Shown: piece by piece, positions 435-55,426 of the stretch
Numbering within the stretch: position 1 is the first letter of the stretch
Layout: every line of letters begins with the position of its first letter
NCBI GenBank assembly: GCA_028278335.1
Contig: JANQEN010000063.1
Location: 1 to 64,000, forward strand
From: Chitinivibrionales bacterium
GTDB taxonomy: Bacteria; Fibrobacterota; Chitinivibrionia; Chitinivibrionales; JANQEN01
Direction of reading: 5' to 3'
DNA: 64,000 nucleotides
Program-made: the position numbers and the translations under genes
Notes under the pieces: generated by a model
What the model was told of the DNA's origin: nothing
The model's database searches: none
Seen by the model: the letters and a program-made list of their open reading frames with translations, nothing else

Positions 435-782
435 GTTGAAATAAATGAAGCCCGTCTAGGGCTTTTACCTAGAAGTGTAGAATTTTATGAAACACACCGA
501 GGCTTTTTACCTGGAGGTGCAGAAATTGTTGAAACAGGCCTAGGACGTTTACCTGGGAGTGTAGGAATCTTTGAAACAGTATTAGGTCTTTTACCAATGG
601 TAGAAGAATTTTCTGAAACACAGCAAAGTCTTTTCCCTAGAGCGGCTGGAATTGTTGAAACATCTCTAGTCCTTTTACCTAGAGCTGTTGAAATTATTGA
701 AACACAACTAGTCCTTTTTCCAAGATGGGTAGAAAATGTTGAAACATCTTTCGGTTTTTTGCCTAAGGGTGTTTGTTTTTTT
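435..782 (+). repeat. 42-bp tandem array 1 (about eight units)
   Basis: Eight consecutive units begin at 447, 489, 531, 573, 615, 657, 699 and 741, so the period is exactly 42 bp with no indels. Seven of the eight units begin with GAAACA (the first with GAAGCC). A T-rich core TTTTACCTAG and a tail near GTGTAGAAATTGTT recur in degenerate form. Bases 7-13 of each unit vary most. In unit 1 the segments CTAGG and CCTAG flank the core and could pair. Because 42 is divisible by three the frame stays open from 435 to 848 and would read as 14-residue repeats (ET..L..LPR..E.V). I read this as a DNA or RNA repeat array, not as a gene, because there is no convincing start signal. It lies 373 bp upstream of the helical protein gene at 1156. 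A second array of the same period precedes that protein's paralog. Confidence 0.85.
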
Positions 783-1155
783 CCAACCCTACTAGCCCCT
801 TTTATTTGGATATATTCTACTTTATATATAACCTCGTTACTTTATTAATTACATAACCTTACAATGTTTATCGGAAATTGATTTGATATCATATCCTCAT
901 TAAAGTTGGACTGGATTGGACAAACATGCAATACATAAAATGAAATTTCTATAGATTACAAAAAATTATTAAAAAAAATACAATATTCATCCCAACTCAC
1001 TCGTAATGATTACCAGAGGACAGTAACAGAGTGCAGTAGCAAGGAACAGTTCCTCTCCTGATAGATGTTCAGCTGAAAAGTCGTCATAAAAAGTTGTTAG
1101 TGCTTTTTTAGTGTAATTACTTGTGATATGTTTTACTCAATTATGGAGGTGCATC
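783..1155 (+). other. Leader between array 1 and its gene
   Basis: This 373-bp spacer separates the repeat array from the helical protein gene. It contains CAGTAACAGA at 1021-1030, a 10-mer also present at a similar distance upstream of the paralogous gene (54647-54656). It also contains a small perfect inverted repeat, GGAAC-A-GTTCC, at 1043-1053. No open frame with a ribosome-binding site is visible. It may hold a promoter or a non-coding RNA, but nothing here proves either. Confidence 0.4.
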
Positions 1156-1857
1156 ATGGCTCGCATGGTAAGTCGATATATTTCACCCAAAAAGTGTCTT
1201 GAAACAGGAGAGAGACACATTCACTTAGCAAATCAGGAGTGTGGCCTTGACAACAAATACTCCCAGGCGTTTAAACCTAAATATGATACTCTCAAGGAGA
1301 AGTTAGAAAAGTGGGATGAAATGCGTAGGAGCTGTCTCTTTGCATATGATAAGGTGTATATATCCAAAAAACGATTACTCAATGCTACCCGTACCTGTTT
1401 AGAGCATATTAAACAGTTTCGACGTGATAATCATGGTGCTATTATTCACGCCTCCTTTGACGAAATAGTTACCTATAGTACCTATTCGAAAATGAAATTA
1501 ACCAAATTGCTTAGTGCAATCGAGAACTTAGTGTATCGTTTCAAACAGCTTGATGACGGCCACCCACTCTACCATTTTACAGATGACCTTGGGAACGTTG
1601 TAAACACTACCAAATTAGCCATAGCAGCCTATGAAGAGGCACAATATAACAGCGCAAAAGCCAAAGTTGAAACACAATGTGCCCAGGACGAAGTTATCAA
1701 ACAGTATAAAAGAAATTACTTCGAAGCAAACATAGAAATGGGAAGAGACTGTGCAGATGATCTGTTCCCTATTCTTCGGCGAAAAAAGTTAGTCAATGAT
1801 ATTGAAGAAGTTGAAGTGGAGGATATTTCAGAGGATAGGGCAACTGAAAGTGAGTAA
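1156..1857 (+). CDS. Array-associated helical protein, paralog A
   Basis: This 233-residue protein has no signal peptide and no membrane segment. It is highly charged and appears almost wholly alpha-helical. I chose the ATG at 1156 because GGAGG (1145-1149) lies just upstream; an in-frame start at 1123 has no such site. It is clearly related to the gene at 54767. Both begin with M-A/P-R-M, both have a central L..L...I..L pattern followed by a HPLY/HGLYPL segment, and both end with an alanine-rich helix leading to a C.Q.....Y..NYF.A...MG motif and then LFP. The C-terminus here is extended and acidic. Size and layout recall DUF6261-type proteins of Bacteroidota, but that is an unverified recollection. 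The function is unknown. Both copies sit downstream of a 42-bp array on the same strand, which suggests the array and the protein work together. Confidence 0.85.
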   Translation: MARMVSRYISPKKCLETGERHIHLANQECGLDNKYSQAFKPKYDTLKEKLEKWDEMRRSCLFAYDKVYISKKRLLNATRTCLEHIKQFRRDNHGAIIHASFDEIVTYSTYSKMKLTKLLSAIENLVYRFKQLDDGHPLYHFTDDLGNVVNTTKLAIAAYEEAQYNSAKAKVETQCAQDEVIKQYKRNYFEANIEMGRDCADDLFPILRRKKLVNDIEEVEVEDISEDRATESE

Positions 1858-5713: not shown

Positions 5714-6100
5714 TTGAATATCTACGTAGGGAATTTCCCCAAAACCATCGATGATGAAGCGATCCGCAACCTTTTTTCAGCACACGGCGAGGTGACTGAA
5801 GTAAAACTACTTAAGGATCGATATACTGGTGAACTTAGAGGTTTTGGTTTTGTTATTATGGATTCGAAAGATGACGCCTTAAAGGCCATTGAAGCAATCA
5901 ATGGTTCCGAGCTTGAAGGGCGTAAGCTTGTTGTCAATGAAGCCCGTCCCAAAAGAGACAATCGCGGCGGCGGCGGCGGTGGTCGTGGAGGTTTCCGCGG
6001 CGGCGGCGGCGGTGGTGGCGGCGGTTACCGCGGTGGCGGTGGTGGTGGCGGCGGTTATCGCGGTGGCGGTGGTGGCGGCGGCAACCGCAGTCGTTATTAA
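5714..6100 (+). CDS. RRM-domain RNA-binding protein with glycine-rich tail
   Basis: The first ~80 residues form a single RNA-recognition motif. RNP2 is IYVGNF at residues 3-8, and RNP1 is a RGFGFVIM segment around residue 43. The remaining ~45 residues are an RGG/YRGG tail of almost pure Gly and Arg, encoded by near-identical GGT/GGC blocks. Start is TTG at 5714, with TAGGAG at 5702-5707. Proteins of this type bind single-stranded RNA and are often cold-induced in bacteria. The 275-bp upstream region may carry its control, but I see no definite element there. A strong terminator follows. Confidence 0.93.
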   Translation: MNIYVGNFPKTIDDEAIRNLFSAHGEVTEVKLLKDRYTGELRGFGFVIMDSKDDALKAIEAINGSELEGRKLVVNEARPKRDNRGGGGGGRGGFRGGGGGGGGGYRGGGGGGGGYRGGGGGGGNRSRY

Positions 6101-54184: not shown

Positions 54185-54504
54185 TTTCCAAATTTGTGAC
54201 GATTATTATTTATGCATGCAAATCCATCGCCATAATTGTGGAATGCCCTCCTCATCCTTGCATACCCCCTTCCGCATATGTGGAATAGGGTCTGCACGCT
54301 TACATCACCCGTTCCACAAATGGGGAAGCATAGATGCTCTCTTGCAGAGGCTTTTCCGCAAATGCGGAATTGGTGATGCATTCTAACAGAGACCTTTCCA
54401 CAAATGCGGAGTTGAGTGTGTAAACTAACATACCCCTTGCCACATGTGAGGAAAGATGTTTGCCTTCTTACAACACCCATTCCGCATTTGCGAAGCGTCA
54501 TTTG
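54185..54504 (+). repeat. 42-bp tandem array 2 (about eight units)
   Basis: Units begin at 54185, 54227, 54269, 54311, 54353, 54395, 54437 and 54479, exactly 42 bp apart. Each carries a 16-bp palindromic core of the type TTCCGCAAATGCGGAA and, near its end, a CTTACAnnnCCC tail. The 14 bases between vary most. The core is unlike that of array 1, but the period and the position upstream of a paralogous protein are the same. The array also keeps a frame open on the minus strand, giving 14-residue repeats (ICGK....). I take that as a by-product of the 42-bp period. Confidence 0.88.
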
Positions 54505-54766
54505 CTTGCTCGAGGATCTATGGGCACTGAAAAAATTGATAGAATGAAAAAAAGAGAATTATTTCAGCAATAAATATGAAAGTCCATACGTATTTGTGAT
54601 TGAGACGTCATGAATAGAGCAAGATGATTGCACAAACAAGTCTGGCCAGTAACAGATCCGAAACAGCTTTTGTAAGCTTGCATGCTCTATTGATATTAAA
54701 AAGACTCTTGATGCTATTCATGGAAAAGCTCATGAACGTTTAACGACTGGGAAAGTGAGGTTTATT
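54505..54766 (+). other. Leader between array 2 and its gene
   Basis: The 262-bp leader contains CAGTAACAGA at 54647-54656, identical to a 10-mer in the leader of the first locus and about the same distance from the gene (120 versus 135 bp). No other gene is supported. Confidence 0.4.
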
Positions 54767-55426
54767 ATGCCTCGTATGATTCGTGAAAAAGATTCCTCAA
54801 GCATGTGCATAAGCATTTGTCGCCGACATTGCCGCTTATCTAAGCAGAATAGCTATATCAGCAAAGATATCGACACACTAACCAAGCTCTGTAACAGCTT
54901 AAAAATTAAAGAGCAAGACCGTATTACCGCACAAACTACTTGCATGGATCAGTATGATGACATCATCAACAAAGATTATGAATTGAATGATATGATTCGT
55001 ACTATTTTCGAAAAATGCAAGCAGTATGATCGTGAGCATATGTTCGATCAGGTGCTTGAGCACCTGTTTCCCACTAAAACCTATGGCTATCTTCTTCGTC
55101 AAAACCGTCATAAACAACTGGTGCATCTGGAAAAGATCGTTACAAAGCTGAAATCCTTGGGTGAGTCCCATGGATTATACCCATTGGTTGACAGGCTACA
55201 AAAGCAGATGCAGAGTATTGCCCAGTCAATAGCGTTGCATAAGAATGCCCTTCGTATGGTTCAGGCAGCAAAGGCCCAAGAACAGATAGCAAAGGAGAGA
55301 GTGTGCACTCAATACGCCGTCAACTATTTCAATGCCTGTGCACAGATGGGTAAGAAGAGGGCTGCTCGGCTTTTTCCTAAGCGGATTAGTCGTAAAGTTG
55401 CAGAAAATATTGAAGATAAAAAATAA
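54767..55426 (+). CDS. Array-associated helical protein, paralog B
   Basis: The 219-residue protein is highly basic and almost entirely alpha-helical. It has no signal peptide. The ATG at 54767 has GTGAGG just upstream; a GTG at 54755 is in frame but less likely. It is a paralog of the gene at 1156: both start M-x-R-M, share LxxLxxI..L.SL...H.LYPL in the middle and a C.QYAVNYF.ACAQMG segment near the end, then LFP. It adds a Lys/Arg-rich tail, where paralog A has an acidic tail. The function is unknown. Its presence after a second 42-bp array makes a joint role for array and protein likely. Confidence 0.85.
   Translation: MPRMIREKDSSSMCISICRRHCRLSKQNSYISKDIDTLTKLCNSLKIKEQDRITAQTTCMDQYDDIINKDYELNDMIRTIFEKCKQYDREHMFDQVLEHLFPTKTYGYLLRQNRHKQLVHLEKIVTKLKSLGESHGLYPLVDRLQKQMQSIAQSIALHKNALRMVQAAKAQEQIAKERVCTQYAVNYFNACAQMGKKRAARLFPKRISRKVAENIEDKK

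Follow-up and report, generated by a model that had tools for sequence, protein, structure and literature searches.

Tandem palindromic arrays of 41-43 bp often adjoin the genes of two helical protein families, one of them DUF6261, in Fibrobacterota and Bacteroidota

The window analysed here, a stretch of 64,000 nucleotides from the genome of a Chitinivibrionales bacterium, contains two loci in which a tandem array of 42-bp units precedes the gene of a small protein modelled as helical. Along the window the features are:

446..781, no strand assigned: array 1, eight degenerate 42-bp units (TRF and lag analysis)
782..1155, + strand: leader of 374 nt from array 1 to its gene
1156..1857, + strand: gene of a 233-aa window-family protein, helical by the model of its 219-aa paralog
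54215..54508, no strand assigned: array 2, seven 42-bp units (TRF and lag analysis)
54509..54766, + strand: leader of 258 nt from array 2 to its gene
54767..55426, + strand: gene of the 219-aa paralog of the 233-aa protein, all helices in the AlphaFold2 model (pLDDT 78.8)

Both TRF and lag analysis give a period of 42 for the two arrays, and no other array of lag 41 to 43 passes a score of 0.45 in the window; the threshold lies above 0.427, the maximum reached over 87 Markov shuffles of 29 other loci. A sequence-only reading had described array 1 as eight exact units. Its period and unit number hold, whereas its exactness does not: the mean identity of units to their consensus is 0.78 in array 1 and 0.71 in array 2, and because the units are degenerate only the spacing is exact. 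The better units of array 1 carry a palindrome of the type CTAGG-N7-CCTAG, and the palindrome of array 2 is of the type TTCCNCA-AA-TGNGGAA; measured against column shuffles, dyad symmetry gave z 3.4 and z 4.8, respectively. The second locus near 54 kb had been proposed to encode a paralogous protein, and this was borne out, since the products of 1156-1857 and 54767-55426 are 27% identical over their full length. By eye, the leaders of the first gene of the window (1015-1105) and of the paralog on contig C176 (L002 2200-2330, reverse strand) have in common an TTCCTCTC...TTCAGCTGAAA...GTCGTCA element directly 5' of the start. A G+C-rich tandem repeat (GGCGGCGGT) is located at 5963-6082 of the window, inside the open reading frame 5714-6100.

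The source genome (6.33 Mb in 301 contigs), searched with either window protein, encodes five full-length paralogs and a contig-edge fragment, and hence holds five such loci instead of the two seen at first. The paralogs are about 23-53% identical in pairs, and all five have an array upstream, of period 42 in four cases and, in the fifth, weakly detected at 41 nt, the half period being 21 nt. With a profile built from the five, two of the 167 genomes of the phylum gave a match, the source genome counted. In the second genome the homolog is accompanied by a nine-unit 43-bp array with two clear dyads per unit, which begins about 250 nt downstream of the gene. Among the window-family loci the similarity of the units is 0.36-0.46, that is, at background level. 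No relative was found in a first scan of genome contigs with a single protein, nor in viral, phage and plasmid collections scanned with single queries (the window-family protein P0002, one DUF6261 alignment and one DUF6261 protein).

Arrays of the same kind accompany a second protein family, DUF6261 (PF19775), for which a full-text search of 5.39 million open papers lists a single one, on daptomycin resistance in Streptococcus. The resemblance of the window protein to DUF6261, suggested beforehand, did not extend to membership by sequence and proved useful as a lead: DUF6261 is absent among the Pfam matches of all five paralogs up to E 1, and a profile comparison of the window family with the eight DUF6261 proteins of the source genome gave E 0.2, with a probability of 0.3 on the 0-100 scale of hhalign. 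In the source genome eight DUF6261 genes lie above the Pfam curated cut-off, all eight listed places exceeding 27 bits (best 75.1), and at threshold seven of these genes are accompanied by an array with a period of 41 or 43, among them a weak one at a distance of 1.5 kb. DUF6261 matches occur in 39 of the 167 genomes of the phylum. A canonical DUF6261 alignment found 23 loci in named genome contigs, some of them from Bacteroidota MAGs whose titles read Prevotellaceae, Bacteroidales and Alistipes, and many of these loci have an array directly 5' of the gene. Judged by sequence comparison, then, the window family and DUF6261 appear to be different families with the same kind of putative partner array. 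Two MAGs, G169 (Alistipes) and G170 (Bacteroidales), hold 18 and 24 DUF6261 matches, partly fragments, an unusual expansion, whereas among 198 evenly drawn genomes from a single class four are carriers, the centre genome counted; the system is therefore patchy and can be multi-copy where it is present.

Several further elements were noted near genes with arrays and elsewhere. By eye, short TGTCGC or TGTCCG repeats with a spacing of about 11 nt precede four DUF6261 genes in the interval between array and gene (L035, L036, L037 and L039), and three of these loci have a short open frame of the MKxLKLP type, perhaps a remnant N-terminus or a leader peptide. An inverted repeat of about 25 bp (GTCTGAATCAGAATTGGCCAG...), also seen by eye, follows the array directly 5' of the gene at L040:354-442. 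A period-36 repeat lies downstream of the DUF6261 gene in L072 near 4663 (a Fibrimonas MAG) and also in L041.

Taken over all loci examined, an array was detected at 83 of 109: at 6/6 window-family loci, 59/77 DUF6261 loci of Fibrobacterota and 18/26 DUF6261 loci of Bacteroidota. All 83 periods fall within 41-43 (41 in 21 arrays, 42 in 44 and 43 in 18), periods of 40 and 44 having also been permitted in the search. The array lies upstream of the gene in 78 cases and downstream in five. The functional pairing of array and protein that had been supposed from two loci thus holds as a linkage in two families and not as a universal rule, 26 of the 109 loci being array-less at the threshold used. 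Six of these 26 have less than 300 nt of upstream DNA in the sequence examined, several show a 41-43 signal slightly below threshold, and the search window under-detects arrays with no more than three units. The distance from upstream array to assigned start codon has a median of 234 nt; it exceeds 500 nt in 7/79 upstream arrays, and 11/79 end 16-51 nt before the start, start codons having been assigned by a simple rule.

Homologs without an array, or arrays scattered without the protein, had been named at the outset as what would speak against the pairing. The former are the 26 loci just described; the latter are represented by one gene-less array, and arrays are rare in control DNA. In 387,496 bases of the source genome away from the loci then known, two lag-41-43 sites passed the threshold. 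One is a glycine-rich stretch, probably coding and thus a false positive; the other is a real-looking 41-bp array (L164:4161-4497) that runs into the edge of the window's own contig (C115), so that its gene, if any, is unassembled. The same DNA contained seven further sites at other lags (21-23, 36 and 48), and periodic DNA as such is therefore not rare. The gene-less array (L162:4147-4620, source-genome contig C148, about 91146-91620) consists of about 11 units of 43 bp, with a dyad resembling that of the DUF6261 array on C123; no family gene was found in the 10 kb around it, by the list of open reading frames or by tblastn with nine family proteins. We take the array and the helical protein to be cognate partners.

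Some features of the sample bear on these numbers. Loci are often orthologs in related genomes and not independent (for example L050 and L051, or L112 and L113); the 77 Fibrobacterota DUF6261 loci are part of all DUF6261 places listed in the phylum, and the Bacteroidota loci were drawn from pattern matches and top-scoring matches. L166, L167 and L082 were left out of the counts as places already counted, and L091 as a gene fragment, though its locus has a 41-nt array. L060, L051, L055, L057, L058, L104 and L113 were dropped from the array statistics as near-duplicates, together with L091 in the dyad-symmetry test and in the looser mismatch set. L173 is the same Bacteroidota place as L086 and was removed from the totals of 109 and 83 (otherwise 110 and 84), whereas this place is counted twice in the statistics of start-codon distance, Fourier analysis, palindromes and mismatches, unit similarity and terminators.

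The unit is palindromic. Dyad symmetry was measured about a pair of axes separated by half a period; against shuffles of the array's own columns it reached z > 2 in 41 of 65 non-redundant arrays, and over all 65 the mean z was 2.8, with eight arrays below zero. A stricter test, requiring the palindrome to exceed all 20 own column shuffles, was passed by 43 of 77 arrays and failed by 34. Averaged over the 41 arrays, 3-4 nt at the centre of the stronger axis are unpaired, the arms on either side, each about 7 nt long, pair at j-i = 4 to 17, and the linkers beyond them (j-i 18-22) are unpaired and contain the least conserved columns; the second axis is weaker and is raised chiefly near its own centre. 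The variable part of the unit is therefore not confined to bases 7-13, as had been read from array 1, and corresponds to the inter-dyad linkers. The typical unit is a strong palindrome of about 18 nt together with a weaker symmetric element about 21 nt off, faint in many arrays. Arrays contain up to 13 units, and in 32/73 of them the identity of units to the consensus is 88% or more. In a helical-phase test, the Fourier spectrum of column conservation had harmonic 4 (10.5 nt) only slightly raised, with a mean power of 1.40 against 1.93 for harmonic 1, and this harmonic was the largest in 8/71 arrays; DNA-face readout is therefore not proven by it. A unit built of four alike half-sites was considered and rejected, the half-period identity of the consensus being 0.264 against 0.256 when shuffled. 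A clear 21-nt lag is present in several single arrays.

The sequence of the unit turns over fast. Among DUF6261 loci unit similarity was 0.90 for proteins at least 90% identical (17 pairs), 0.47 at 70-90% (3 pairs), 0.48 at 50-70% (49 pairs) and 0.41 below 20%, and graded coevolution of protein and array is weak, with a Spearman coefficient of 0.10 across 2,850 DUF6261 pairs. Units are thus much alike only between proteins at least 90% identical; hence the architecture is conserved while the sequence is free.

The proteins themselves were modelled with AlphaFold2. From 16 DUF6261 sequences an all-helical model was obtained (pLDDT 87.8, pTM 0.55), and the model of the window family, made from two sequences, has long helices at 32-90 and 138-194 plus smaller ones (pLDDT 78.8). 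No Foldseek match reached E 0.001 for either family, and no sequence relative in the PDB was found at E below 0.4. Among the structural alignments listed, the best are to helical-bundle sensors (McpS, McpZ, TorS, PilJ), LemA and designed bundles, with Z of about 8-11, values which according to the tool's own warning are common for helical bundle models. The window-family model aligned with 2yfa_B at Z 10.6 (rmsd 3.1 over 189 residues) and the DUF6261 model with 2yfb_B at Z 9.1 (rmsd 4.7 over 188 residues). Helical sensor domains (McpS, TorS, PilJ) are thus among the best alignments of both families, a hint, and no more, that the modelled proteins may share one architecture.

Among described systems the stem-loop arrays of TIGR-Tas would seem, by analogy of layout, to be the nearest. 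According to PMC12045711, these are arrays of palindromic elements of variable sequence beside a nuclease-less TasA; the Tas protein carries a Nop domain, and the array is processed to protein-bound small RNAs, the 36-nt tigRNAs. The same paper describes a unit of near 36 nt with two alternating repeats of 8-12 nt and variable spacers of about 9 nt, and, for the stem-loop type, variable but palindromic edges, two spacers of 8-12 nt and boxes C and D (PMC12045711). Both kinds of system place one small protein beside a tandem array, with no adaptation genes described, and in both palindromy is kept over varying sequence, with two pseudo-symmetric elements per unit (PMC12045711). The present arrays differ in their period, 41-43 in 83/83 arrays against the 36-nt tigRNAs (PMC12045711), and many of them lack hypervariable 8-12-nt spacers, only the linkers of about 3-4 nt being clearly less conserved; the present loci are in genome assemblies, the single-query scans of viral, phage and plasmid collections having given no relative. 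Palindromy combined with free sequence between loci, as in the stem-loop type, was found in about half of the arrays (43/77), and spacers were not seen. Neither the Pfam matches of the window family nor the structure rows listed for both families include a Nop entry, although such lists do not prove its absence. The longer unit, the lack of variable spacers and the failure to find a Nop domain led us not to class the arrays as TIGR.

CRISPR arrays resemble the present ones as tandem units of fixed length adjoining an associated protein and differ in that the arrays laid out here have no unique spacers between identical repeats; on this anatomy a CRISPR array was rejected, in agreement with the sequence-only reading. 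PADLOC gave no match for eight proteins (five family members and three neighbour genes), and no cas-like gene was found among three neighbours by PADLOC models or eight by Pfam. Partition- and iteron-type arrays (parS, parC, iterons) are tandem binding sites near the gene of their binder which diverge between paralogous copies. The present loci are similar in having a tandem array near a protein gene, with sequence diverged between paralogs; they differ in the absence of any ParA-, ParB- or Rep-type match above the Pfam cut-off, in the many copies per genome and in the palindromic 41-43-bp units. The pairing of array and protein did not appear among the papers listed for tandem palindromic arrays beside unknown proteins in Bacteroidetes or Fibrobacter or for TIGR follow-ups (PMC5704556 included), and within this scope we therefore regard it as probably unreported.

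We propose that each locus would be a two-part cassette, in which a helical protein, from either the window family or DUF6261, is joined by an array within about 1.5 kb, and that the array would be the nucleic-acid partner of the neighbouring protein, bound most likely as duplex DNA; we put this model forward tentatively, at somewhat less than an even chance. In the model, a protein dimer would sit on each palindrome of about 18 bp, its two 7-bp half-sites lying about one helical turn apart, and successive units, four turns apart, would create a one-faced nucleoprotein array. The complex might have a silencing, self-marking or partition-like function, although this cellular role is a guess, and the unrelated array sequences of the five paralogs would prevent cross-talk between them.

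Three observations count for duplex DNA: (i) mismatches in the arms on the gene strand show no preference for G·U, with 42 G.T against 45 A.C and symmetric background substitutions, as duplex DNA predicts, and in a looser set A.C exceeds G.T (135 against 97, p 0.015); (ii) the period of 41-43 equals 4 x 10.25-10.75, about four helical turns; and (iii) the place of the array is flexible, and the C148 array has no gene. The first of these makes us lean slightly to the DNA level over the RNA level. Against the DNA level, the 10.5-nt harmonic is not dominant in conservation, the unpaired centre of 3-4 nt has the size of a hairpin loop, and units are nearly unrelated in proteins 50-70% identical (0.48 against 0.41), which would be unexpected if binding were sequence-specific. 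Acidic proteins are frequent (pI at or below 6.0 for 10/16, 6/8 and 2/6 in three alignments), and no known DNA-binding fold was found. The arrays that end 16-51 nt before the start leave little room for a promoter and are therefore probably transcribed, which also counts against the DNA reading.

The same arrays support a reading at the RNA level, in which the array would be transcribed, in most cases as the leader or precursor of the gene that follows it, and the chain of stem-loops would be cut at 41-43-nt steps to form a ribonucleoprotein with the protein, TIGR-like, in a guide or scaffold role. We consider this quite possible, if doubtful. The palindrome centres are hairpin-sized, palindromy is retained during sequence turnover, and some arrays fold far better than shuffles (array 2 as a whole z -6.0; on the gene strand L077 z -7.6 and L023 z -12.7, on the other strand z -6.8 and -9.5), whereas array 1 folds no better than shuffles (z -1.6; in a second test z -0.7 and 1.3). 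Besides the missing G·U preference, covariation inside arrays is not seen over all pairs of both axes (observed 751 against 756.7 expected, 215 pairs); a modest excess in selected strong arms (289 against 265.5, 73 pairs, z 3.1), which would speak against DNA, is biased upward because the best axis was chosen. In the 32/73 arrays of nearly uniform units there is no guide diversity. Terminators after arrays are not enriched on the gene strand (7/77 against 33/409 control windows) and occur on the non-gene strand in 13/77. No array had an Rfam match in the five sources scanned, 94,497 bases including the window, where the gathering score returned a single tRNA. Bacteroidota promoters follow the motif TT, 19-23 nt, TAnnTTTG; among 19 Bacteroidota rows it was never found between array and start codon, and in four it was found 5' of the array.

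That the array does no more than regulate its own gene, as an operator or attenuator without any wider role, we judge improbable. Its upstream position in 78/83 cases, at a median of 234 nt, is what such an element would show, whereas the five downstream arrays, the 7/79 more than 500 nt away and the gene-less C148 array do not fit, and up to 13 units seem, in our judgement, beyond the need. More improbable still is a reading of the arrays as passive minisatellites that travel together with a hitch-hiking family of genes: homogenisation of units within arrays and fast turnover are in keeping with minisatellites, but the period is fixed at 41-43 across two phyla despite unrelated sequences, palindromy is kept, and such arrays are nearly absent from the 387 kb of control DNA, the two sites there being the array at the contig edge and the coding false positive. 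A coding repeat of 14 residues can hardly be credited and is refuted as a general reading, since the frame would shift with each unit in the 39/83 arrays of period 41 or 43, and the 137-codon open frame through array 1 (435-845, + strand) has no start codon ahead of the units and probably arose by chance, the period being divisible by three.

That two helical families between which no sequence relation was detected share a single kind of array points either to a superfamily of great age or to convergence upon the same nucleic-acid architecture. Guide and self-recognition systems likewise combine a conserved architecture with free sequence, and there is a minor chance, which we hold to be unlikely, that the loci represent a programmable or self-specific nucleoprotein system of a new class, spread over two phyla, in which a helical protein would use its own palindromic array, as 41-43-nt hairpin RNAs or as DNA, as an exchangeable specificity module. 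If this were true, the turnover of the array would far outpace that of the protein while the architecture is kept, and up to two dozen mutually distinct systems could coexist in one genome. DUF6261, a family without assigned function, gains a candidate partner in a pairing that is common (83/109) and present in two phyla, and that makes the family directly testable.
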